Shown: in pieces, positions 1 to 16,208 of the stretch
Layout of the letters: each line of letters opens with the position of its first letter
Position numbering within the stretch: the first letter of the stretch is position 1
IMG/VR virus record: IMGVR_UViG_3300046010_007688
Location: 1-31,458 of that record
Reading direction: 5' to 3' (one strand)
From: a virus
DNA: 31,458 nucleotides
Made by a program: the position numbers and the translations under genes
The notes under the pieces: model-generated
What the model saw: only the letters and a program-made list of their open reading frames with translations
Told to the model about the DNA's origin: nothing
Databases searched by the model: none

Positions 1-1100
1 TGCCGCCAGCGAGGCACTTGTCGTGTTGACGCTGGCTGATAATGTGGTGACGCTTTGCGCCAGAGAAGAGCTAAACGTGACGTTGGTGGTATTGACTGTG
101 GAGATGGATGCCGCCAGTGATGCGCTAGCCGTGTTGACACTGGCTGACAGCGTGGTGATGCTTTGCGCCAGAGAAGAGCTAAACGTGACGTTGGTAGTGT
201 TTACTGTGGAGATGGATGCCGCCAGTGATGCGCTAGCCGTGTTGACACTGGCTGACAGTGTGGTAATACTCTGAGCCAGAGACGAACTGAACGTGACGTT
301 TGTGGTATTTACCGTGGAGATGGATGCCGCTAGTGATGCGCTAGCCGTGTTGACACTGGCTGACAGCGTGGTGATGCTTTGCGCTAGAGAAGAGCTAAAC
401 GTCACGTTTGTCGTATTTACCGTGGAGATAGACGCTGCCAGTGACGAACTGGCTGTATTGACGCTAGCCGACAGTGTGGTGATGCTTTGCGCCAGAGATG
501 AACTGAACGTGACGTTGGTAGTATTTACTGTGGAGATAGACGCTGCCAGTGACGAACTGGCTGTATTGACGCTAGCCGACAGTGTGGTAATGCTCTGAGC
601 CAGAGAAGAGCTAAACGTCACGTTTGTCGTATTTACCGTGGAGATAGATGCCGCCAGTGACGAACTGGCTGTATTGACGCTAGCTGACAGTGTGGTGATG
701 CTTTGTGCCAGAGAAGAGCTAAAAGTGACGTTGGTGGTATTGACTGTGGAAATGGATGCCGCTAGCGAAGAGCTAGCTGTATTGACACTAGCTGACAGTG
801 TGGTGATACTTTGCGCCAGTGACGAACTGAACGTCACGTTTGTGGTATTTACCGTGGAGATAGATGCCGCCAGCGAGGCACTTGTCGTGTTGACGCTGGC
901 TGATAATGTGGTGACGCTTTGCGCCAGAGAAGAGCTAAACGTGACGTTGGTGGTATTGACTGTGGAGATGGATGCCGCCAGTGATGCGCTAGCCGTGTTG
1001 ACACTGGCTGACAGCGTGGTGATGCTTTGCGCCAGAGAAGAGCTAAACGTGACGTTGGTAGTGTTTACTGTGGAGATAGACGCTGCCAGTGACGAACTGT
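1..1100 (-). repeat. Homogenised 108-bp tandem repeat block A in the fibre gene
   Basis: About ten nearly identical 108-bp units, each coding two 18-residue repeats. They are visibly richer in G+C than the degenerate repeats of the same gene (about 1100-1750 and 2340-4400). Units differ by scattered, mostly silent changes. Bases 1-213 recur without a mismatch at 865-1077, an offset of 864 bp or exactly eight units. This looks like recent expansion or gene conversion in a multiple of the coding period, which keeps the frame. Confidence 0.93.
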
Positions 1101-4100
1101 TTCCATCAATTCTAGATGATAATGTAGCAATACTCTGCGCCAACGATGAACTAAAATTTGTTTGGGTAGTAGTTGCATTTGTTACTGCTGAAGACAGCGA
1201 TGCACTATTTGTATTAATGCTAGAAGATAATATAGTAGTTCTTGATGCCAAAGATGAACTAAATGTAGTTTGTATATCTTCTACAGTTTTTATAAATGCT
1301 GCCAAAGATGAACTATTTGTAGTAACTCTTGAATCTAACTCGGTTGTTCTTGAAGCAAAAGATGAAGAATTATTTGTAGCCGCAAGTTCTATAGTTGTTA
1401 TAGAAGCTGCCAACGAAGAACTGTCTATGAATATAGCACTAGCAGAAATAGAAGCTATTCTTTGTGCTAAGGAAGAACTTGCATTTGTAAAAGCAAAGTC
1501 AGTGCTAGTTATTGCAGCAGACAATGAACTGCTAAAAGTTAAAAAGCTAGAAGATAACGTAGTAGATCTGGATGCTAGAGAAGAACTTGCAGTAACAAAT
1601 ACAGTATCTACATTTGTTATAGAAGCTGCTATCGATGCACTCGTAAAATTGATGCTTGCCGACAATGCCGTAGATACTTGAGCAAGCGATGAAGAAGTAT
1701 CTGTAAATGTAGTTTGAACATTTGTTATAGATGCGGCGAGAGATGCACTATTTGTTTTTACGCTAGACGATAACGTGGTGATGCTCTGAGCCAGAGACGA
1801 ACTAAACGTGACGTTAGTCGTATTAGAAGTGGTGATGGATGCCGCCAGCGACGCGCTATTACCAGAAATTGTGGATGACAGCGAGGTAATGCTTTGCGCC
1901 AGAGATGAGCTAAACGTGGTGTTGGTGGTGTTCGTCTGGGTGATCGAAGACGCCAGTGACGCGCTGTTGGTGCTGATGCTAGACGACAGCGTAGTGATGC
2001 TCTGCGCCAGAGATGAGCTAAACGTGGTGTTGGTGGTGTTTGTCTGAGTTATGGACGCTGCCAGTGACGCACTGTTGGTACGTATGCTAGACGACAGCGT
2101 GGTGATACTTTGCGCCAAGGAAGAGCTAAACGTGACGTTAGTCGTATTAGAAGTGGTGATGGATGCCGCTAAGGAAGAACTGTTACCATCGATTCTGGAA
2201 GATAATGTGGTAATGCTCTGGGCCAGAGACGAACTAAATGTGGTATTGGTTGTATTCGTCTGTGTTATAGATGACGCCAACGACGCACTGCTAATGTTTA
2301 TACTAGAAGAAAGAACAGTGACTCTCTGAGCCAGAGAAGAACTATAATCCGTATTTACGCTGTCGATTTCGGTGATAAATGCAGCAATAGAAGCGCTCGT
2401 TGAATTTACAGATGAGTTTAATATTGTTGTTCTATCCGCAAAAGATGAAGAGTTTGTTACTACCGCCTGTTCAACCGTGGTAATAGACGCGGCCAAAGAA
2501 GCGCTATCTATAAAAACTGCACTTGCGGAGATCGACGCCAGTCTTGATGCCAAAGAAGAGCTTGCACTAGAAAATGCAAAATCTGTGCTGGTTATTGCCG
2601 CCGACAATGAGCTACTAAATGTATCGAAACTCGTATTAAGTTGAATGGAGCGTTCAGCGAGCGAAGCACTTGTAGTGGAAAATACGGTATCTACGTTTGA
2701 AATTGTGGCAGAGATTGAAGAACTAACTAAATTTATGCTAGACGATAATGTGCTAGATCTTGTAGCTAAAGAAGAGCTTAGATCGGTAAATGTTTCTTCA
2801 ATTGTTGTTATTGTAGAAAGTAATGATGCGCTAGTATTTACAAAACTTGAAGAAAGCGTAGATGCCCGCGATGCCAGTGAAGAACTAAATGTTACAAATG
2901 TTTGTTCCGTTGTAGATATAGAAGCCGCTAACGAAGAACTTTGAAAATTAGCATCAGAATCTAATGTGGAAACTCTGGAGGCAAGGGACGAGGAATTATT
3001 TACTACAGTTTGTTCAATGCTTGATATTGACGCGGCCAAAGATGCACTGTCGATGAAAATGGCACTGGCAGATAATGCAGATATTCTTTGTGCCAATGAC
3101 GAACTGGCATTAGTAAATGCGAAATCCGCAGTGGTTATTGCGGCAGAAAAAGAAGAACTAAATGTATATACACTTGCAGATATGACCGTAGTTCTAGAAG
3201 CTAATGAAGATGACAGTGTATTTACCGCAGTCTCATTTTCGGAAATGAAAGAAGAAAATGAAGAACTAACCCCAGTTATGTTGGAGTTTATTACCACCAA
3301 TCTTTCTGCCAAAGAAGATGATGCTTCAGAAAACACAGTCGAAGATTCCGATATAGATGCGGCAAATGAAGAACTTACATTTTCTATGTTAGAAGATAAT
3401 GTGGAACTCCTCTGTGCGAGAGATGACGACGTAGATACAAAAGTTTCATCAACGGAAGTGATCGTGGCAGAAATGGAAGAACTAACCGTGGTTAGCTCAG
3501 ATGATAATGTTGATATTCTTTGTGCAAGCGAAGATGAAGAATCTGAAAACGTACTGTCCGTAGTAGTAATTCTTGATGCTAAAGATTGACTTGTGTTTGA
3601 AAAACTTGCTTCTAAAAGTTGAGTTCTTTCTGCCAAAGAAGAGGATACCGTAACAAACGCCGTATCTGCGTTTTGTATCAATGCCGCTATTGATGCGCTA
3701 TTTTCATTAAAATTGACTGCGGCAGCTATCGTTGTTATTCTTCCGGACAGAGACGATGATGCTTCCGCAAATGTAATATTATTTTCCGATATCGACGCCG
3801 CCAGAGAAGAACTTGTATTTGAAAACGAACTTCTCAATTCATCAATAGTCAGGGCAGACGATGCACTGGTAGTAGTAAAAGAATCTCTTACAGATTTTAC
3901 ACTGGAATCCAAGGATCCAGAAACATTAGTGAATGAAGTACTTAGTTCTACAATCTGTGTGGCGGCTGACGAACTGAAAGTTGTTAGTGTGGAAGATAGC
4001 TGGGTTATTGTTGCTGCCAAAGACGCACTGTCCAAGGAACCCGATCCAGCTATATACGAAGAAAGGTTTTCTACTTTAGCGGCCAGAGAAGAACTTGCAT

Positions 4101-4986
4101 TTATAAACGTGGTATATGTAGTATCTATTGATGAAGCAAACGATGCACTATTGAAATTTGCATTAGAACTTATCGTGTCAATTCGAGTTGCAATAGATTC
4201 GCTAGTGGTAGTCAACGTAGCTTCTATTGTTTTTATGGAGCTTGCCAGAGAACTACTGTTTATTGATAGCGACGAACCTAAACTAGTTATATTTGCCGCA
4301 AAAGAAGAAGAACTATCTGAAAAAGCTCCATATACCGAAGTTATATATGCCGCAGTTGATGCGGAATTTTGCATCAAGGTTTCGCTAAATGCTCCGTAAC
4401 TTGCAGACAAAGAAGCAGAAACTTGATCCAATTTTATTATTACGGAAGAAGATATGCTGGTTAGAGAATTGTTTAGTGAAGTAACTCTTGTACTAAGAGA
4501 ACTGGACGCCGCAGTCAATACCCTAACATTGGTAGATATGGACGAAGAAAATAGTCCAAGTTCTTGTCTAACTACATCGATAGACTCGGTAGGAAGCGGT
4601 ATTATTGGTCCACCACCCTGCTGTATTGTAAGCGTTCCATTATTTTGGTCTGTCAGCTTTACAGATCCGACGTATAAACTCCCCGAAGTTACATATATAT
4701 CTTTCCATCTTCTGGAAGGACTTCCCAAATCATACAAATTATCTGTCTGTGGGATTATATTTTGATTTACTTGACTTAAATCAATAGAACCACTTACAAT
4801 TGAACCAGAACCGCCAGAATTTAAGTAAGGTAAGCTGGTCCACGAGGCAGTTCCATTCCCTATCTTAAGTCTACCAGTATCCAGTTCAAATCCGGCTTCG
4901 CCTGGATATAATGTCGGATTTACTGCCGCCCAATTTGAAGCAGTATCTCTTTTTAGCTGAATTCTAGAAATTCTGATTGTTGCCAT
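1..4986 (-). CDS. Giant repetitive tail fibre protein (partial, runs off the left edge)
   Basis: The frame is open from the ATG at 4986 to position 1, at least 1662 codons; I checked several long stretches by hand and found no stop. Residues 3-54 match the N-terminal module of phage fibres and tropism determinants (LKRDTASNWAAVNP, GEAGFELDTGRLKIGNG, W-x-S-L-P-Y). Residues 77-106 carry a second fibre motif (NLYDLGSPSRRWKDIYV). From about residue 195 to the edge the chain is a Ser/Thr/Ala/Asn-rich 18-residue repeat, for example SITTLSASVNTASASLAA and SISTVNTTNVTFSSSLAQ, roughly 80 copies. Hydrophobic positions 2, 5, 9, 12 and 16 are spaced 3-4-3-4-4, which suits a nearly straight alpha-helical bundle; that fold is inference. 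The N-terminal part probably attaches to the virion. The receptor-binding C-terminus lies outside the window. The start is 12 nt after the upstream stop, with no clear Shine-Dalgarno. Plus-strand open frames here are shadows of the repeat. Confidence 0.9.
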   Translation of the reverse strand, partial: MATIRISRIQLKRDTASNWAAVNPTLYPGEAGFELDTGRLKIGNGTASWTSLPYLNSGGSGSIVSGSIDLSQVNQNIIPQTDNLYDLGSPSRRWKDIYVTSGSLYVGSVKLTDQNNGTLTIQQGGGPIIPLPTESIDVVRQELGLFSSSISTNVRVLTAASSSLSTRVTSLNNSLTSISSSVIIKLDQVSASLSASYGAFSETLMQNSASTAAYITSVYGAFSDSSSSFAANITSLGSSLSINSSSLASSIKTIEATLTTTSESIATRIDTISSNANFNSASFASSIDTTYTTFINASSSLAAKVENLSSYIAGSGSLDSASLAATITQLSSTLTTFSSSAATQIVELSTSFTNVSGSLDSSVKSVRDSFTTTSASSALTIDELRSSFSNTSSSLAASISENNITFAEASSSLSGRITTIAAAVNFNENSASIAALIQNADTAFVTVSSSLAERTQLLEASFSNTSQSLASRITTTDSTFSDSSSSLAQRISTLSSELTTVSSSISATITSVDETFVSTSSSLAQRSSTLSSNIENVSSSFAASISESSTVFSEASSSLAERLVVINSNITGVSSSFSSFISENETAVNTLSSSLASRTTVISASVYTFSSSFSAAITTADFAFTNASSSLAQRISALSASAIFIDSASLAASISSIEQTVVNNSSSLASRVSTLDSDANFQSSSLAASISTTEQTFVTFSSSLASRASTLSSSFVNTSASLLSTITTIEETFTDLSSSLATRSSTLSSSINLVSSSISATISNVDTVFSTTSASLAERSIQLNTSFDTFSSSLSAAITSTDFAFSSASSSLASRLASISASAVFIDSASLAASITTVEQAVVTNSSSFADRTTILNSSVNSTSASIAAFITEIDSVNTDYSSSLAQRVTVLSSSINISSASLASSITQTNTTNTTFSSSLAQSITTLSSRIDGNSSSLAASITTSNTTNVTFSSSLAQSITTLSSSIRTNSASLAASITQTNTTNTTFSSSLAQSITTLSSSISTNSASLASSITQTNTTNTTFSSSLAQSITSLSSTISGNSASLAASITTSNTTNVTFSSSLAQSITTLSSSVKTNSASLAASITNVQTTFTDTSSSLAQVSTALSASINFTSASIAASITNVDTVFVTASSSLASRSTTLSSSFLTFSSSLSAAITSTDFAFTNASSSLAQRIASISASAIFIDSSSLAASITTIELAATNNSSSFASRTTELDSRVTTNSSSLAAFIKTVEDIQTTFSSSLASRTTILSSSINTNSASLSSAVTNATTTQTNFSSSLAQSIATLSSRIDGNSSSLAASISTVNTTNVTFSSSLAQSITTLSASVNTASASLAASISTVNTTNVTFSSSLAQSVTTLSASVNTTSASLAASISTVNTTNVTFSSSLAQSITTLSASVNTASSSLAASISTVNTTNVTFSSSLAQSITTLSASVNTASSSLAASISTVNTTNVTFSSSLAQSITTLSASVNTASSSLAASISTVNTTNVTFSSSLAQSITTLSASVNTASSSLAASISTVNTTNVTFSSSLAQSITTLSASVNTASASLAASISTVNTTNVTFSSSLAQSITTLSASVNTASASLAASISTVNTTNVTFSSSLAQSITTLSASVNTASASLAASISTVNTTNVTFSSSLAQSVTTLSASVNTTSASLAA
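1750..2340 (-). repeat. Homogenised 108-bp tandem repeat block B in the fibre gene
   Basis: A second run of about five high-similarity 108-bp units with a variant consensus. It codes SITQTNTTNTTFSSSLAQ alternating with SITTLSSSISTNSASLAS. Stretches near 1802 and 2126 are almost identical at an offset of 324 bp (three units). Diverged repeats flank it on both sides, so it was amplified separately from block A. Confidence 0.85.
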
Positions 4987-4991
4987 TTTCT

Positions 4992-4999
4992 ATAAATAT
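4992..4999 (-). promoter_or_regulatory. ATATTTAT octamer, candidate late signal
   Basis: Coding-strand ATATTTAT starts at the last base of the upstream stop codon and ends 5 nt before the giant fibre start. A promoter here would give a leaderless or nearly leaderless fibre mRNA. Confidence 0.35.
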
Positions 5000-7236
5000 T
5001 ACGTAGACCCAGCATCTCCACCGTCCAGTACAATATCTATCACGTTACCTCCTCCACCACCTCCACCGCCACCCCCACCGCCACCTCCACCTCCACCACC
5101 TCCACCGCCCCCACCTATTACAACGGTAAAAGGAATGTCGCTGGATACTATACCTACCGGATCTACGAATATTTTTGTTTTTAATGGCATAAATCTTTTA
5201 TTATAAGCAAAAGTATATGAGTTTGAGCCATATGCCAGCCTATTTTGAGCATCATATAGTTCCATTTCTATTTCATATAGTTCATTGGGCACTTTTACAG
5301 GTAATGGTATTTTTACGCTAAAACTATCAATAGAATAATCTATATTTTGATATGGTTGTATAGAAATATCGGATATGTTCCATTCGCCCTGACTTGGTGC
5401 AAGAAGTATAGTGCCAAATGACTCTTGTTCATTGAAAAATGTCTTTTCGTATGCTTCATTAGCGCCAAAGTTGTATGAACTGTCTATATATCCAATCATT
5501 TTTTTATTTGTTCCACTTATATAATAAGTATATAATTTAGCGTCATTTGAGTTGTTAGCACCCGCTTTTACTTTCATACTGAACTTATATAAAGTATTTT
5601 GACGCAATCTGATAGGATTACTGTCATGAACCCTACCGTTTATTAGGTTCTCTTGTGAAGCACTGTAGTTTGATATATATGGAATGTTATTTATACCAAG
5701 GTACGACGATGTTGGATATATATCATAGTTTATAAATGCATCTGTATTCGCATACCAATATGAGTTATTCAGTAAGTTAGGTCCATAATATGTAAAGTCA
5801 GTTGAACCTGAAAATGTATTATCCTTGAATATTACATAATCACTCAATGAACTATTATCCGCGTGGCTTATTCTGGCACCGTTTATAAGCACTTCGTTAC
5901 TTTGAGTAAAAACACAGCCGCCCTTTATAAACCAATGCTTTTGTACATGTGCGTTATTATAAAAATATGATGTATTATCATACAATCCATTATCAAACTT
6001 TTTTGAACGTATAACGTGCTCTGCTTCAATCTTACCTTCGGCCAGCAATGTTTTTGATATTGGCGTGTTTAAACTTCTCCCATATATCTTGTAGTATGAC
6101 AAATCGCCGCACAATGTTCTTGCATTATTGCATTCAATATTTAACGCGGACACAAAGTATGTAGAACCTGAAGGGTCTGCTCTTGGCAAATATACAGGTA
6201 TTTGTTTATGAAATATTTCATATTGACCATCGGACAAACTTAATACATAAAAATTTTTCTTATGAAATACAGTTTGCTTGGCGGCATCATCTATTACTGT
6301 ATATCCCTTCAACTGAACAAGATTGTTTTTGGCGTATGGTGAATCTTCGTTTGTTGAGTTGATAAGTTCAGATACGGTCGCAAATGGTATATCAAGCAGC
6401 AATGAAGTTTCATTTACTACTCGTTTTATTTTTGCGATAAAATCTGTATTCAATATGCCTTGATACTCTACTCTATTATCGCCAAAGTTTGTGTATGTAA
6501 ACTTTGTTACGGTTGGATTTTTCAGGCGTATATTTTCGCCTTCCATACTGGCACTAAACTTGTTTCCAGATTTCCAGTATAGTTGATATGATGCATCTTC
6601 AAACTGATAATCATAATCTCCGTTTGCATTGTTTTTTGGACTTAGTGCAATTGACGAAAATGTGCCAGAAGATAAGCTATATGAACTCGTTGGATATAAT
6701 GGCAGTGAATATATTTCTGATTTTGTTCTGATATATGGCGACGTAAAAAATCTTACTTCAGAATCAGTTTTTTTGCTAGTGTCTATCAATAAGTTTCTGG
6801 TCCATATAACTTCACCGGTTTCTAGCTTCTTATCTTCGGATGGAGCACTTGTTAGTGGCAATCTTTGGTTTTTATTTATCTTGTATCCAACATTATTATA
6901 ATACGCAACAAGACCTGTATATCCTTCTAAATTTAGCCCAAGAGCACGTATTTCTATTTTTCCTGTGCCGTTGATTGTTTCTTCTGGAACATTTACATAG
7001 TATAATTGACCTGTGAGCGTTTGTTCAGAAAACGCAGAATTGGTTGGTTGAATTATTCCTGAAGGCAGAATATTGCCTTGGGTGTCATATACTCTTACCG
7101 TAATAGGAGTATTAGGTATAACATACGGCGTTGTATTTACCGTAAACGAATTCTTGCCCGCTTTTAGTACATCACTAAAGTTAGTTAGAAAAAAGTAGGT
7201 ATTAGAGTTGTAATCTACGTCAAATAGTTGTTCCAT
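4999..7236 (-). CDS. Putative virion/tail-fibre-associated protein with a C-terminal 23-glycine run
   Basis: A 745-residue protein I do not recognise as a whole. It is rich in Tyr, Ser and Asn, has no membrane segment, and looks like a beta-structured virion protein. The N-terminal part (about 1-150) includes TPITVRVYDTQGNILPSGI, which resembles an Ig-like or presenter domain. Near the C-terminus, 23 consecutive glycines are followed by NVIDIVLDGGDAGST. Glycine-rich segments are known in adhesins of T-even relatives, where they form polyglycine-II helices; a similar use here is inference. The gene lies directly upstream of the giant fibre with a 12-nt gap, so a fibre, adhesin or fibre-attachment role is likely. 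Its start codon lies inside a 7-bp hairpin. A fibre chaperone is an alternative. Confidence 0.75.
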   Translation of the reverse strand: MEQLFDVDYNSNTYFFLTNFSDVLKAGKNSFTVNTTPYVIPNTPITVRVYDTQGNILPSGIIQPTNSAFSEQTLTGQLYYVNVPEETINGTGKIEIRALGLNLEGYTGLVAYYNNVGYKINKNQRLPLTSAPSEDKKLETGEVIWTRNLLIDTSKKTDSEVRFFTSPYIRTKSEIYSLPLYPTSSYSLSSGTFSSIALSPKNNANGDYDYQFEDASYQLYWKSGNKFSASMEGENIRLKNPTVTKFTYTNFGDNRVEYQGILNTDFIAKIKRVVNETSLLLDIPFATVSELINSTNEDSPYAKNNLVQLKGYTVIDDAAKQTVFHKKNFYVLSLSDGQYEIFHKQIPVYLPRADPSGSTYFVSALNIECNNARTLCGDLSYYKIYGRSLNTPISKTLLAEGKIEAEHVIRSKKFDNGLYDNTSYFYNNAHVQKHWFIKGGCVFTQSNEVLINGARISHADNSSLSDYVIFKDNTFSGSTDFTYYGPNLLNNSYWYANTDAFINYDIYPTSSYLGINNIPYISNYSASQENLINGRVHDSNPIRLRQNTLYKFSMKVKAGANNSNDAKLYTYYISGTNKKMIGYIDSSYNFGANEAYEKTFFNEQESFGTILLAPSQGEWNISDISIQPYQNIDYSIDSFSVKIPLPVKVPNELYEIEMELYDAQNRLAYGSNSYTFAYNKRFMPLKTKIFVDPVGIVSSDIPFTVVIGGGGGGGGGGGGGGGGGGGGGGGNVIDIVLDGGDAGST
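5047..5115 (-). repeat. Polyglycine-coding tract (23 codons)
   Basis: Twenty-three consecutive glycine codons near the 3' end of the 745-aa gene. All four codons (GGT, GGA, GGC, GGG) occur in mixed order, so the tract is not a pure triplet expansion and the glycine run itself appears to be maintained. Confidence 0.95.
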
Positions 7237-7270: not shown

Positions 7271-10200
7271 TCAGACGGTATTATCTATCTTACTGAACCC
7301 GTTTTCCTTCTTTATCTCAAGTTGCTTATCTACCATGTCTCGCATAGCGTCAAGATGGCTTATTATAATGATAAAATCAAAGTTTCGCTTTAGATAATCA
7401 AATAATGCGTGTAGCATAGGTATATTATGACCATCTAATGCTGAAAAACCTTCATCTACAACAAGATAGTTTGGTCTTGGTAGATTACTCACGTTGATTA
7501 GAGCAACTCTAAGTGCCAATCCCGATATGAACTTTTCCATACCTGAACATAGTTCAAGCGGCCATTTTTTATCTTCATACTTGATATATACATTCACATT
7601 CTTGCCGTCTGTTTCTATGCTTACACTAAACTCGACAATATGAGATAGTATGTTATTTACTTCTTGTTCAATCTTTGGTATGGCGTCGGATATTATTTGA
7701 TATGGCACGCCATCCTTGCCAACGGCAGAAATATAATATTGATATGCGGAAAGATCATCTTCGTATTGTTGTATTGTCAATAGTTGTTTTTCTGATTCTT
7801 TGAGTTGATCGACCGCAGATACTTTCTTGCTATACGCATCCATATGCTCTTTTTCTATGTTTTTGAGCTTAGATGATATGTTTGACGCTTTGATTTTTAG
7901 CTCATTGACAATATCTTCTATCGCCTTGTTGCTTTCTACAATCTCTTTTGACTTTTCATATAGTTCAATTTGATCTTGTAGTTCTTTGATGCGAGCATCA
8001 TTTCTTTCAACACCGGACTTTAGATTTGTTTTTTCAAGTTCTTTCTTGGAAATAAAAGCAGTAAGCGTGTTGAGTATTTCTTTTAGTTTCACGCTTTCTT
8101 CATACTTTGATACATACTCGGCATATGCTTCCATTTCTGTTTTGATGTTTGATAATGCGTCGGATAGTTCCTTGGCTTCTGTTCTATCGGCAGCAAGGCT
8201 TTCTCTGGTTGATATAGCATCTTTTACAAAGATATTATCGCAGCAGTATTTACAGTTGGGGTCATATTCGTGTTTATCAAGATGAGCCAACTTCTTCAGC
8301 TTTTCAGACACAATCGTTTTGAGTTTATCCATCTCGGTTTCAATACGCTGCTTGGTTCTGCTTAGTGTCTGATACTTGTCATGCTTTTCTTTGAGATCGT
8401 CTGGAAACTCTTTTAGCTTGTTGGCGGCGTCAACATATATTGGCTTTTTGGCTGATACTTCAATATCAATCTTTTCAATATTTTCATTTGCCAGCTTGTT
8501 TTTTGATACAAGATTATCTCGCTCACGAACAATAGGCATTATGTTTGTAGGAACATTTTCAAGTTTTACAATAGTAGCTTTTTTAGCGTCTATTTCGGCA
8601 TCAACTTCATTCTTGAACGCCGCTTGTGTTTCTTTTTGTGCGTTCAAGTCATTGATTTTAGAGTCAAGCAGTTCTATATCATTGCTGGTTTGGCTTATTT
8701 TCTTCAGCCCATTTTCTTTGTTGAACAACTTGACCGCACCAGACAGTTCCTTGGTTTTGTCTGCGGCAAGAGAAGCTAGTTTATCAAACAAGTTTAGACC
8801 AATAAACTGAGACAATAGTTCTTTGCGTTCTGTTTGTCCCATATCAATAAACGAGCCTTGATTGCCTTGTAGAGCAAGTGTAGTCAATACAAAATCATCA
8901 TAGTCGCCAAGATAATCACGTATGATTTCATTGGTGCTGCGGCGAGCTTCGCTGTTGAGGCTTACTTTTTCATCGCCGTTTAGCTTGTAAAAGTTTACAT
9001 CAACTTTGACATTGTTCTTTTTGTCTCGCTTGCCTTCACGTTCAATAACGTAATGAACATTGTTTATCTCAAATGTGAACTTGCCACTAAAACTCATCTT
9101 TTGCGAGTTCATTACGTGCGTGGCCTTGAATGCTCGTGCACTCTTGTCAAACACCGTAAAGCACAACGCATCCATCAATGAACTTTTGCCGCTGGCATTT
9201 GCCGCAAATAGTCCATATACATCCTCAAGCTTTGTAAAATCAAGAATGTTCTTTTCGCCATAACTAAACATATTGCTGAACTCAAACTTGACTGGCTTCC
9301 AGCGAATGTTTCTGGATGTATCATCCTTGCTTAGTCCAGTATTTAGTTCCTTGTTGATTTTACAGACGGTGTCAATAGTTTCATCGTCCATAACATCCAC
9401 AAACTTCTTTCGCAGATAATCCGTGATGATTTTGTTCTGATAATCAATATTGCCGATTTGATTTAGATTTGATATGTTTTGTGCTTGAGCAACCTTGGTG
9501 GCACCATCTGTATCTACTCTTACATATATCAAGTCGGTGATTTCATATGTTTTGCGTAGTTCATTGATTACCTTCTTTACTTCTGTCGCAACACTTTCCT
9601 TACAACGCACACGTAGTTTTGGCTTACGTGGCATTGTGGTTATGTCAGTAATCAGTTTGCCGTCATCAACATCTATCGTAAAATACCCATAGTCGTTTGG
9701 TATTTCAACATGAGAATATGTTCTTTGCTTGATGTTCCATAGCGATAGTCCGTGTCCAAGCAATGCTTCGCCGTGGTTCTGCTGGATAAGAGACCCCGCA
9801 TAACGTATAATAGGTTTTTCATTAGTTTCATCATATTGCTGTAAATCTTGAGCCATATGAATATCACCAAGCATGGCAATATCGTGCCCATCAAATAGTT
9901 CGTTGGTTATTGTTTTATCCGAGACCGCATATCCTATATCTGTGCGAGCATTTAGTACTCCGCCGTGATATAAAGCGATTTTTGTATCAAAACTGGTCTT
10001 TATCTTTTTGGTTACATTCTTGAGCTTGATGTATTTGGTAACGTCGTCAAATACACTCATATTATTGATGAGCAAATTTGCGGCACCATACAAGCCGGTA
10101 TTCTTTAGATAAAAAAGTTTATTGTGCTTTAGATTATCAACGATAGGAGAAATACTATCAAGACGAGTAGCATTAGTAAGCAAACAATCGTGATTGCCTG

Positions 10201-10477
10201 CGATGATAATCGTTGGTCTAAGTTCTGATAGTTTATGAAAAAACTCACTTGTAATCTGAACTGCTTCTGGGCTCAAATCAACTTTGCTATGAAGTGTGTC
10301 GCCAGTATTGATAATAACCGTGTTTTCTGGCGTCTTTGATATTTCAGCATACAGCTTCTCAAACGCTTCTCTATATTCTTCGTGGCGTTTTGTAAGACGA
10401 ATATGTATGTCGGATATATGAACAACATAATCAATCTTACTTAGTCCTATATCCAACTTTTCAAATGTATCTACCAT
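7271..10477 (-). CDS. Fused gp47-gp46 (SbcD-SbcC / Mre11-Rad50) recombination nuclease
   Basis: One uninterrupted 1068-aa frame joins two subunits that are separate in T4 (gp47 about 340 aa, gp46 560 aa). Residues 18-260 are a calcineurin-like phosphoesterase: HISDIH (D23, H25), NTGDTLH (D60), GNHD (94-97), YHGG (H171) and GDIH (D205, H207). A gp46-type start follows at 391-407 (IRWKPVKFEFSNMFSYG), then Walker A at 422-433 (GLFAANASGKSS), Q-loop Q537, coiled coil, zinc hook CKYC (742-745, with an extra C746), a second coiled coil, ABC signature CSGMEKF (977-983), Walker B YLVVDE (1004-1009) and H-loop SH (1040-1041). All catalytic parts are present, so the fusion should be active. Known family role: resecting DNA ends for recombination-dependent replication and host DNA breakdown. 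It starts just after the primase stop; AGGA 11 nt upstream, inside the primase end, can serve as ribosome site, so the two are coupled. Confidence 0.95.
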   Translation of the reverse strand: MVDTFEKLDIGLSKIDYVVHISDIHIRLTKRHEEYREAFEKLYAEISKTPENTVIINTGDTLHSKVDLSPEAVQITSEFFHKLSELRPTIIIAGNHDCLLTNATRLDSISPIVDNLKHNKLFYLKNTGLYGAANLLINNMSVFDDVTKYIKLKNVTKKIKTSFDTKIALYHGGVLNARTDIGYAVSDKTITNELFDGHDIAMLGDIHMAQDLQQYDETNEKPIIRYAGSLIQQNHGEALLGHGLSLWNIKQRTYSHVEIPNDYGYFTIDVDDGKLITDITTMPRKPKLRVRCKESVATEVKKVINELRKTYEITDLIYVRVDTDGATKVAQAQNISNLNQIGNIDYQNKIITDYLRKKFVDVMDDETIDTVCKINKELNTGLSKDDTSRNIRWKPVKFEFSNMFSYGEKNILDFTKLEDVYGLFAANASGKSSLMDALCFTVFDKSARAFKATHVMNSQKMSFSGKFTFEINNVHYVIEREGKRDKKNNVKVDVNFYKLNGDEKVSLNSEARRSTNEIIRDYLGDYDDFVLTTLALQGNQGSFIDMGQTERKELLSQFIGLNLFDKLASLAADKTKELSGAVKLFNKENGLKKISQTSNDIELLDSKINDLNAQKETQAAFKNEVDAEIDAKKATIVKLENVPTNIMPIVRERDNLVSKNKLANENIEKIDIEVSAKKPIYVDAANKLKEFPDDLKEKHDKYQTLSRTKQRIETEMDKLKTIVSEKLKKLAHLDKHEYDPNCKYCCDNIFVKDAISTRESLAADRTEAKELSDALSNIKTEMEAYAEYVSKYEESVKLKEILNTLTAFISKKELEKTNLKSGVERNDARIKELQDQIELYEKSKEIVESNKAIEDIVNELKIKASNISSKLKNIEKEHMDAYSKKVSAVDQLKESEKQLLTIQQYEDDLSAYQYYISAVGKDGVPYQIISDAIPKIEQEVNNILSHIVEFSVSIETDGKNVNVYIKYEDKKWPLELCSGMEKFISGLALRVALINVSNLPRPNYLVVDEGFSALDGHNIPMLHALFDYLKRNFDFIIIISHLDAMRDMVDKQLEIKKENGFSKIDNTV

Positions 10478-12977: not shown

Positions 12978-15900
12978 TTACGTATCAAAACGAACAACAA
13001 TATTAAGCGGCCAATCAATTAAGTTTTTTACAGGTCTTCCCAATTTACCAACAGCTACAAGTTCGTTTCCGTCATACAAGCCAATAGTTGTTATAAACGG
13101 AGCCAAATATGAACCTGTAGGGTCGTATGATGAACTATATTGATACTCTAAGAAATATGGACTTACTTTTGCATTATCGCTACGACAATATGTGTTCAGA
13201 TATTCTTTGATTTCTTTTACATATCTACGTGTAGAGTCTTCGTTAATCAACAAGTTTAATCTGTCTGGAGTAAGACGCTGTAGATAATACAATGAAAGTA
13301 TGTTTCCATCATTTAAGTTTATTTTTCCGTCACCATCAATATCAAGTAACCCCGTGTTTACCAAATTATTTTCTATATAATCAAACGCAGTTTTGGTGAA
13401 TGCATTAAATGATGAGCTTGCTAAATATGCCGCCTCATCACTTTCCAATAACAACACATCCTCGGATTCAAGTTGTAGTATGTCATTATTCCACCAACTA
13501 TAATCTTTAAGACTATCTTGTTCTAAAATAATTCCATTATCGTCAAACACGAATTCTTCAAAGAATTTTCTCTTTTGCAAATACCGCATTATCAAATCAA
13601 CATCATTAAAATCAAAAACTCCATCTTGATTTACGTCAAACAACAATGAACTTTGCACAAGTGCAGTAGGATTGATACTATAATTGAATTCTCCTGGTCT
13701 AATAGAAATTAAATGTTCGTGCTCGTATATTGTATGAGAACCTTGATAGTTTAAATCAAATCCACGAGAACCTGTACCAGTGAATATATTGTAATAATTG
13801 GACGATGTATTTGTTAATACAAAATATCCATTCTTATAAAATACATTTCCGATTAATGGGCTGGTCTGGTAATTGCTAAGATTATAAACATAAACTGAAC
13901 CGGAACAATTTGATGGAAACCCCAGTAAGTTATTTGGGTCAGAAATAGACTCTGTGGCCGAGGCTGTGGCAAGGTGTACAACAGGTGCACCAACCGTCAA
14001 AAAGTCAGAACAAACGCAGACAGAATATCCATAAATATTACTTGGTTTGTATGCTTCTTTGTTTCGCTTTATCATGCCTGTCAGTTTCCAAGCATCCGAC
14101 GCATCGTCATAATTATATACAGTTACTCTACCCAATACTCCGGACGTATCTTCGGACGAAGTTGAAGCGTATGAATAATTTTGTAATACATATTGTCCAT
14201 CAACATAATCGACGCTTGTACCGGTTGTGTCGGACCAAGATGTTACCGCAGCAAAATTTCCATCAACAGACACAGATTTTCCAAAATTATTATTTTTTGT
14301 ATATTGCCTGTCACCAAATGTTTTTAGAGATTTCCAATAACTGGATGTTCCGCACTGCGGCATATATCTATAAAAATAAGCTGCCCCAAGAACAGTTGCT
14401 CCACCAGAGTATGAAGAATATGGAATAAATGCCTTATCGCTCAAGCATCCAACAACTATTGTCGGATAACTTACAGAGACCGAAGTTCCAAATCCATCCG
14501 TTGTTATTTCTGTAGAAGTAACATCGTTATTGTATAGTGCAAGAGACATATCCAAGTCTCCGTATGTATTATCTCTTCTGAGTATCTTACATTCTCCCCA
14601 AGACGCTGTGGGACATTCTCCGTATGAAGCAGAATAGTATGAGCAAGTGAATACTGCGGCATATCCATTTCCACTCTTGTATGTTCCCACAACTAAACTA
14701 CCAGAATCTAAAGAAACACACCATCCGAATTTATCACCGGAAGCAAGCACGCTTGATGTAACGACCGCTTCATATACCCAAGTATAACTACCAGACAATG
14801 CGCCAGAAGCAATAGTTCTTTCATTATATATCGTATATGATCCAGATTCTGTTATAAGTTCTCCACAAAAATCATCCTGTGGGGCAACAGTTTGCCAGAA
14901 TGAACTGGTTTGTATGTTGTCACACCCATTACTAAAATATCTCTTTCTTCTGAAAATATAAACTGCACCAGATCCACTTACATTTGGTGCACCGACCGCC
15001 AACGTGTCGTCATCCAACGCAACAGAATGTCCAAAATAATCATTGTCCGTTGCTCCCTGTAATATATTGACGAGTCCCCAGTTATCTATGCCGCCCTTGT
15101 CTCTATTGTATACAAATACATAGCCAGGAAATGAACCAGACAAACATATAGATCCGGAAGATGAGCCAATCGCGAGAAAATTATCTCTCACCGAGACGGA
15201 TTGACCAAACGTGTCTGTGAAATACGAAGAACTTGCCTGAAACTCTGGTATTGAATATGGGAATGTATCATCAACGTCAAAATCAGTGAAAAATCCAGAA
15301 TCCGTAAATGGACAATTAAATTTTTTAACTAGTCTGTGAACTCCGGTATTGTCGTCGTATTTAAATATCGCTGCATATCCCAACGAAGGTCTATACAAGC
15401 TATACTTGTCTATTGAAGACCCAACAGCAACATACTTGTACCACGAACTGACCGATTCACCGAAGTGCTCATTGTCCGATTGAAAATTATCTACAACAGA
15501 ACTGCTATCAAATAAAATGGAAGATGTTCCAACATAAGAAACATTCATTCCTATACTGGCATACTCTTTTGCGGAGACTACATCTATTTTATGGACTATG
15601 CCATTGCCCAGGTTCAAATAAAATTCTCCACTTGAAGTATCCCAATATGGTCTTGGATATATGTTTTTTACCCCACCCAAAGTTGTATATGTAGAAAAGT
15701 GAGAACCGCTGACATACAAATTAGTGTACCCGTCATCTAATATTCTATATTCTTCATGTGGATTTGAGTTGTCGGTAATTACCACGGAGCTTGGTCTTAC
15801 TTTGTCACCAAATGCGTTATGATTTAGTGCCAACGAAACAACTCTATCATTTATGCTTCTAACTTCTCTTTTTCCAGTTACTTTATCGGTTGTATAACTT

Positions 15901-16208
15901 TCTACGCCAAACAACTCAGTGAAGTTGTTCTTGTTTCTATAAAACATAGCGTCAGTGAGACTATATATGTTTCTTGCGTATTTCCCAGAAGGATTGATTG
16001 GCTCTAACGAGGCAGAATAATATGGACTACCGGATGGATAAAAAATAGATGATATTTTCTTACCTTCGTTTATCTCACAAAACTGATTGTAATATGTGCT
16101 ATATCCATATGCATCAACAGAAGACGAATCAACACTTTGAACTGTCCAGTTCTTGAACGTATTGAATGGCCTTATTGTGATATCCCCTGCGGAGAACTGT
16201 TTTATCAT
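12978..16208 (-). CDS. Virion protein with a seven-repeat FG-GAP propeller and two dockerin-type calcium loops
   Basis: A 1076-aa protein. Residues 1-240 resemble the N-terminus of the 364-aa neighbour. Seven FG-GAP/integrin-alpha-type blades follow, starting near 249 (FGESVS), 334 (FGQSVS), 392 (FGHSVA), 494 (FGWCVS), 573 (FGTSVS), 642 (FGKSVS) and 726 (YGYSVC); most continue as a hydrophobic strand plus VG (LAVGAP, LAIGSS, LTVGAP). Seven blades suit a closed beta-propeller. Two dockerin-type EF loops follow: DVNQDGVFDFND (858-869) and DIDGDGKINLND (956-967), each followed by a helix with a YL pair. The last 39 residues (ITTIGLYDGNELVAVGKLGR and on) match the neighbour's C-terminus. It is likely a surface-exposed tail or baseplate decoration that binds a ligand, with calcium in the loops; the partner is unknown. 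Domain calls rest on motif reading; placement in the virion is inference from the neighbours. Confidence 0.85.
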   Translation of the reverse strand: MIKQFSAGDITIRPFNTFKNWTVQSVDSSSVDAYGYSTYYNQFCEINEGKKISSIFYPSGSPYYSASLEPINPSGKYARNIYSLTDAMFYRNKNNFTELFGVESYTTDKVTGKREVRSINDRVVSLALNHNAFGDKVRPSSVVITDNSNPHEEYRILDDGYTNLYVSGSHFSTYTTLGGVKNIYPRPYWDTSSGEFYLNLGNGIVHKIDVVSAKEYASIGMNVSYVGTSSILFDSSSVVDNFQSDNEHFGESVSSWYKYVAVGSSIDKYSLYRPSLGYAAIFKYDDNTGVHRLVKKFNCPFTDSGFFTDFDVDDTFPYSIPEFQASSSYFTDTFGQSVSVRDNFLAIGSSSGSICLSGSFPGYVFVYNRDKGGIDNWGLVNILQGATDNDYFGHSVALDDDTLAVGAPNVSGSGAVYIFRRKRYFSNGCDNIQTSSFWQTVAPQDDFCGELITESGSYTIYNERTIASGALSGSYTWVYEAVVTSSVLASGDKFGWCVSLDSGSLVVGTYKSGNGYAAVFTCSYYSASYGECPTASWGECKILRRDNTYGDLDMSLALYNNDVTSTEITTDGFGTSVSVSYPTIVVGCLSDKAFIPYSSYSGGATVLGAAYFYRYMPQCGTSSYWKSLKTFGDRQYTKNNNFGKSVSVDGNFAAVTSWSDTTGTSVDYVDGQYVLQNYSYASTSSEDTSGVLGRVTVYNYDDASDAWKLTGMIKRNKEAYKPSNIYGYSVCVCSDFLTVGAPVVHLATASATESISDPNNLLGFPSNCSGSVYVYNLSNYQTSPLIGNVFYKNGYFVLTNTSSNYYNIFTGTGSRGFDLNYQGSHTIYEHEHLISIRPGEFNYSINPTALVQSSLLFDVNQDGVFDFNDVDLIMRYLQKRKFFEEFVFDDNGIILEQDSLKDYSWWNNDILQLESEDVLLLESDEAAYLASSSFNAFTKTAFDYIENNLVNTGLLDIDGDGKINLNDGNILSLYYLQRLTPDRLNLLINEDSTRRYVKEIKEYLNTYCRSDNAKVSPYFLEYQYSSSYDPTGSYLAPFITTIGLYDGNELVAVGKLGRPVKNLIDWPLNIVVRFDT

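Follow-up and report, generated by a model that had tools for sequence, protein, structure and literature searches.

A predicted giant tail fibre of an uncultured T4-like phage, built on an 18-residue repeat and differing in its shaft between near-identical relatives

Known fibre systems and the fibre gene of the window

Phage T4, which has a contractile tail, binds its receptor through a long, thin, trimeric fibre (gp34–gp37); this long tail fibre measures ~145 nm, is jointed and consists of several proteins (PMC5537660). In the lambda-type J tip and in F2-pyocin-type fibres (PDB 9ze4, 25vf, 7z4b), a coil is followed by a J-like domain, whereas the YadA-type trimeric autotransporter adhesins have long coiled-coil stalks with a non-heptad period and asparagine core layers (PMC4786415). 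An Mtd_N head, finally, is present in cyanophage proteins such as that of S-WAM1. Here, we analyzed a window of 31,458 nucleotides, which is an entire IMG/VR virus record (IMGVR_UViG_3300046010_007688), and found at its left end a gene that resembles each of these systems in part. Its Mtd_N head is ~62% identical over 48 aa to the S-WAM1 protein, which is without the 18-residue repeat and without a peak at 3.6 residues per turn in the 2050 aa examined. With the J tip and the F2-pyocin fibres the gene family shares the order of coil and J-like domain, but the matched coils there comprise ~70–100 residues, whereas the shafts described here comprise 1500–2200 residues in strict 18-residue units behind an Mtd_N head. 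The likeness to the T4 long tail fibre lies in the long, thin and, for the present fibre, presumably trimeric build, and in the S74-type C-terminus of one relative (L015), which matches PDB 6f45, “Long tail fiber distal subunit”; in contrast to T4, a single polypeptide would form a shaft that, if helical as predicted, would be at least 225 nm long. The stalks of the YadA type differ in their period, which is 15/4 there and 18/5 here, and neither a YadA-type head nor a YadA-type membrane anchor is among the Pfam matches of the complete relatives. A literature search, from whose reach most subscription journals fell, yielded no paper describing this fibre class, which is best filed as a J-like/S74-type fibre with a giant 18/5 shaft.

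The window also carries genes for an SbcD/SbcC-like fusion, a primase, RuvC, and gp25 and gp6-like baseplate proteins, and thus derives from an uncultured T4-like contractile-tailed phage. Among annotated gp6-like proteins, the nearest are those of Microcystis phage Mel-JY01 (46%) and of Flavobacterium immuto phages (39%). In the fibre frame no stop codon occurs up to the contig end, so that the gene, as foreseen in the original prediction, runs past the edge of the window. A degenerate DNA search for block A among viral contigs, by which the gene could have been extended to the left, gave nothing. The features of the locus are compiled in Table 1. Antisense frames beneath the repeat, e.g., 638..1681 on the plus strand, were judged to be by-products of the repeat.

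Table 1. Position of the fibre gene, its parts and the adjoining gene in the window
Feature	Coordinates	Strand	Description
Fibre gene	1..4986	minus	ATG at 4986; 1662 aa; C-terminus missing, open at contig end
Mtd_N domain	4849..4962	minus	Fibre aa 9–46, presumably virion-proximal; Pfam PF18454, 50.9 bits vs. cut-off 26.3
Spacer domain	4597..4791	minus	aa 66–130; motif NLYDLGSPSxRWKDIYV; kept in L007, L008 and L030 (alignment)
Shaft	16..4557	minus	83 units of 18 residues, aa 144–1657; consensus [SA]SLA.SI.TL.S.V.TNS
Block A	1..1095	minus	About ten near-identical 36-residue (108-bp) units
Second 108-bp array	1762..2290	minus	Inside the shaft, more diverged
Contig-terminal 213 bp	1..213	unstranded	Exact copy of 865–1077; repeat at assembly end
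Switch zone	4853..4885	unstranded	L008 and L009 part from the window sequence here
Neighbour protein gene	4999..7236	minus	745 aa; conserved upstream of the fibre gene, 44–100% identity

Domain order in complete relatives

Relatives were gathered with the N-terminus, a piece of the shaft, the neighbour protein and a C-terminus as queries, whereby the queries from the L015 C-terminus and from the gene downstream of it matched L015 alone. Against phage records, the repeat region had no tblastn match, for which low-complexity filtering is the probable cause. Four complete versions of the fibre were obtained (L015, 1932 aa; L030/L036, 2557 aa; L042, 2086 aa; L050, 2199 aa), as well as an open one of at least 2424 aa in L008. 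The Mtd_N domain (PF18454) is found above cut-off at the N-terminus of the fibres of the window, L008, L015, L030, L042, and L050. In each complete relative it is followed by 78–103 units of the repeat and then by a J-like domain, which was identified by a database match in L015 and by similarity judged by eye in L030, L042, and L050. The J-like domain of L015 matches PDB 7z4b (3.6e-7), 25vf, and 9ze4. A C-terminal Peptidase_S74 domain is present in three of the four complete relatives (L015, L030, and L042); a Pfam search of L050 (4478–11071) yielded no S74 domain, and this protein ends in a long Pro/Thr linker and an extra domain. L030 and L036, which stem from two metagenomes, are identical across the 7671-bp gene, and thus the long arrays are real and not an assembly artefact.

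Since the complete relatives end in this way, the missing C-terminus of the window gene most likely includes, by analogy, a J-like domain followed by a tip, frequently accompanied by an S74 folding chaperone. The gene had been predicted to encode a giant fibre, with a stop shortly beyond the left edge and no receptor-binding domain named as an outcome that would speak against it. With the Mtd_N head found here and the J-like and mostly S74 C-terminal modules of the complete relatives, which, rather than the window gene itself, carry the J-like domain and the tip, the assignment of the gene product as a tail fibre is well supported through the relatives. It might also be that the gene encodes a tape-measure protein, given that some tape-measure proteins are long, helical and contain short periodic repeats; the repeats would then lie within the tail tube and not in an external fibre. 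We regard this as extremely improbable because the Mtd_N head and the J-like and S74 C-terminal domains of the relatives are domains of external fibres, and because the shaft differs completely among near-identical phages (see below), which a length ruler would be unlikely to tolerate.

Period and predicted structure of the shaft

From residue 141 onward, the sequence matches itself with an identity of 0.56 when shifted by 36 residues and of 0.34 when shifted by 18, whereas in a shuffle control (n = 200) no lag gave more than 0.186. The units in Table 1 were placed by a position-specific matrix, with a step of exactly 18 residues in 76 of 82 cases, which agrees with the predicted number of about 80 copies. 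Over hundreds of units, positions 3, 7, 10, and 14 are hydrophobic in 76–95%, and the fifth position of the seam (17) is mostly polar across the family (N 38–45%) and F or A in block A. The hydrophobic positions named at the outset (2, 5, 9, 12, and 16) correspond to positions 7, 10, 14, 17, and 3 in our numbering and describe the identical seam with a spacing of 3-4-3-4-4. This seam is continuous, with 18 residues in five turns.

Fourier analysis of hydrophobicity gave a peak at 3.61 residues per turn (power 11.2) for the divergent part of the shaft and at 3.60 (power 16.9) for block A, where shuffled sequences reached at most 2.5 and 3.4, respectively, and the power at period 2.0 was 1.1 and 3.2. 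The peak at 3.60–3.61 was found in seven proteins (window, L006, L008, L015, L030, L042, and L050), and a comparison of six proteins yielded a power of 0.3–1.7 at period 2.0 vs. 10.5–15.7 at the peak. As a positive control, the SbcC-like heptad coiled coil on related contigs peaked at 3.42–3.50 in a looser window scan, so that the method can tell an 18/5 period from a heptad one. Steps other than 18 across the shafts were +4, +7, +11, or +14 in 33 of 54 cases vs. 24% expected (p = 4e-9), and in 16 of 28 cases when the core columns were masked for placement (p = 1.4e-4), whereby both p-values are optimistic owing to shared ancestry and events that are not all independent. Insertions of these lengths preserve a helical seam.

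When the repeat profile was compared to PDB sequences, five matches were obtained, all of them to phage-J/fibre or coronavirus-spike proteins. These are the phage J tip 9ze4 (E 3e-4), the F2-pyocin fibre 25vf, and three spike entries, one of which is an HR1 mimic. In 25vf and 9ze4 the match directly precedes the J-like domain, as is the case in L015. Going by the alignments and by what these proteins are generally taken to look like, the matched PDB regions are presumably helical; the matches are weak, and composition may contribute to them in part. PF01442, which describes helical repeats, scored 160 bits in L030 (cut-off 90) and 67.8 bits, below cut-off, in the window. This match, like those to PF06705 and HBL, was read as generic helical-repeat similarity and not as homology.

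A beta shaft would contain one strand or solenoid coil per 18 residues and would give a fibre of ~40 nm. Left-handed beta-helices also have a coil size of 18 residues, the composition of the shaft is rich in Thr, Val, and Ile, and an AlphaFold2 (AF2) model of 12 repeats, computed with an alignment of shifted internal repeats, consists entirely of beta hairpins (mean pLDDT 58, pTM 0.59). However, a Foldseek search with this model retrieved no solved-fold match (best probability 0.07). The shaft has a power of only 0.6–3.2 at period 2.0 and 2.5–3.4 at period 6.0, vs. 11–17 at 3.6, and is thus without the period-6 or period-2 core that marks a left-handed beta-helix or solenoid, and with a 4-3-4-3-4 spacing the core residues of a strand would point to both of its sides. 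Moreover, a bias of AF2 towards beta-solenoids is documented for repeat sequences (PMC11795689), and with an alignment of relatives it yielded helices for aa 1–400 (134–239, 245–275, 280–314, and 320–399; pLDDT 44), which begin roughly at the start of the shaft. Neither of the two AF2 models is reliable, the beta one being of low and the helical one of very low confidence. In our judgement it is the periodicity that decides, for which reason we prefer a helix and consider a beta shaft unlikely.

Ser, Thr, and Asn together make up 48–58% of the shaft, and charges are few. These residues are poor helix formers, which counts against a helix, and the same composition, together with the low AF2 confidence in both models, would suit a disordered, flexible, Ser/Thr-rich mucin-like linker, possibly glycosylated, that tethers the tip. 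Such a linker would hardly be expected to keep four fixed hydrophobic positions per unit over hundreds of units; in addition, the changes between block-A copies are mostly synonymous (618 synonymous to 102 non-synonymous, summed over unit pairs) and the seam survives insertions. We therefore consider disorder very unlikely. The nearly straight helical bundle of the original prediction agrees with the 3.60 period, the insertions of 4, 7, 11, or 14 residues and the coiled-coil matches among PDB sequences; the two AF2 models, both of low confidence, point in opposite directions.

Judged from the sequence, a helical rod is likely. A straight helix has 3.63 residues per turn (PMC4786415), relative to which an 18/5 period would produce a left-handed supercoil with a calculated pitch of ~65 nm, so that the shaft would be nearly straight. 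If helical, at 0.1485 nm per residue, the 1514 shaft residues of the window would span 225 nm, close to the ~200 nm estimated before, and the shafts of the complete relatives 219–325 nm, whereby the spans are defined by the matrix and 325 nm is an upper figure because the last placements in L030 overrun the clear repeats; up to about residue 2030, the L030 shaft would measure ~280 nm. From the Mtd_N, J-like, and S74 domains we infer a parallel homotrimer. In the shaft, three identical chains would accordingly form an alpha-helical coiled coil whose period is a true 18/5 (heptad plus hendecad per unit), which would leave it with hardly any twist and rod-like. Of the core layers in each unit, four would be hydrophobic and the fifth would in most cases be asparagine or else some other small or polar residue, while the surface would present serine, threonine, and asparagine and be almost uncharged.

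Tandem arrays, shaft switching and neighbouring genes

In block A, identity is 0.975 at lag 36 vs. 0.46 at lag 18, with N and V alternating at position 14 and F and A at position 17, so that the 36-residue superperiod read from this alternation is real. The block does not contain a single charged residue in 360 aa. The contig-terminal repeat is exact, whereas most block-A units are only 79–95% alike, which indicates that the contig stops within the array and that the virus itself has at least as many copies as counted; for the last 1.1 kb of the window the copy number is uncertain. In the complete relatives the longest exact internal repeat is only 22–47 bp, which probably explains why these were assembled. 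The higher-order period is not the same in all lineages, being 36 in the window and in L008, 72 in L030, and both 108 and 36 in L015, which is consistent with separate tandem expansions. We propose that the length of the shaft may be set by tandem duplication of 36-, 72-, or 108-residue blocks.

L008 and L009, which come from other metagenomes than the window, are 99.82 and 99.75% identical to it, respectively, over ~10.1 kb, between about 14986 and 4853 (fibre codon 45), exact identity stopping slightly before 4853 is reached. Past the switch both carry a collagen-like Gly-Thr-Ser stretch, after which L008 continues with an unrelated shaft. L008 and the window encode neighbour proteins that are 100% identical. 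A further contig, L005, is 99.81% identical to the window over 12,996 bp and represents the same phage over its extent. The shaft swap is thus seen as far as the contigs reach, and what is new here is that two near-identical contigs switch to unrelated sequence, in L008 an unrelated shaft, after a common presumed attachment end. The tip is probably exchanged along with the shaft, the contigs ending in or before the latter. No serine recombinase, as for an invertible fibre segment, was found in the related contigs, and no reverse transcriptase, as for a retroelement-diversified Mtd, in six contigs of up to 58 kb, all of these being fragments. In L008 (10001–10400), L009, and L031, Mtd_N is separated from the remaining fibre by a collagen-like GTS/GGS/GAA stretch.

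According to the picture we propose, the gene would encode the receptor-binding tail fibre of an uncultured T4-like contractile-tailed phage, with the Mtd_N end probably anchored either at the baseplate or to the adjoining 745-aa protein. Recombination within the part of the gene that encodes Mtd_N would swap the shaft, and probably the tip too, among otherwise near-identical phages. We hold this picture as a whole, i.e., a receptor-binding fibre with an 18/5 trimeric helical shaft, a length set by duplication and a swap at the Mtd_N region, to be quite probable. A wider claim would be that a clade of uncultured phages has single-protein fibres of ~220–340 nm with a natural, near-untwisted 18/5 trimer, uncharged stretches, and a spaced polar (mostly Asn) core layer, and that near-clonal phages exchange shaft and tip as a cassette and thereby change host; we put this forward tentatively, at somewhat less than an even chance. 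If helical, the fibre would rank with the longest predicted viral fibres that consist of a single polypeptide and would exceed the T4 long tail fibre. The repeat would then be a natural modular source of a nearly straight coiled coil, with a period rarely seen over such a length, and could be used to test coiled-coil theory and to build rods. That the shaft switches abruptly in ~99.8% identical phages points to cassette exchange, which could be tracked in time-series metagenomes as host-range switching.

The 745-aa neighbour is likely a fibre-anchor or virion protein. It has no Pfam or PHROG match, and no counterpart was found in the bacterial genomes and phage records searched. Near its end (window 5047–5116, minus strand) a long glycine run is followed by a conserved tail (VIDIVLDGGDAGST), and the length of the glycine tract differs among relatives. 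In L033 and L034, collagen-like Gly-X-Y repeats lengthen the neighbour protein (from position 10001) to 1370 and 3096 aa, respectively, so that this locus holds a different type of shaft there. In L032 (12246–21786), large genes that by eye are glycosyltransferase/methyltransferase-like occupy the fibre position downstream of the neighbour gene. Elsewhere in the window, a 1076-aa protein (12978–16208, minus strand), which contains FG-GAP repeats and shows weak dockerin-like similarity, is a possible second surface or tail protein. In the SbcD/SbcC-like fusion (7271–10477, minus strand), SbcD-like and SbcC-like halves, the equivalents of phage gp47 and gp46, are joined in one protein of 1068 aa, and ORFs of 1068–1069 aa occur at the same place in L007 and L015.
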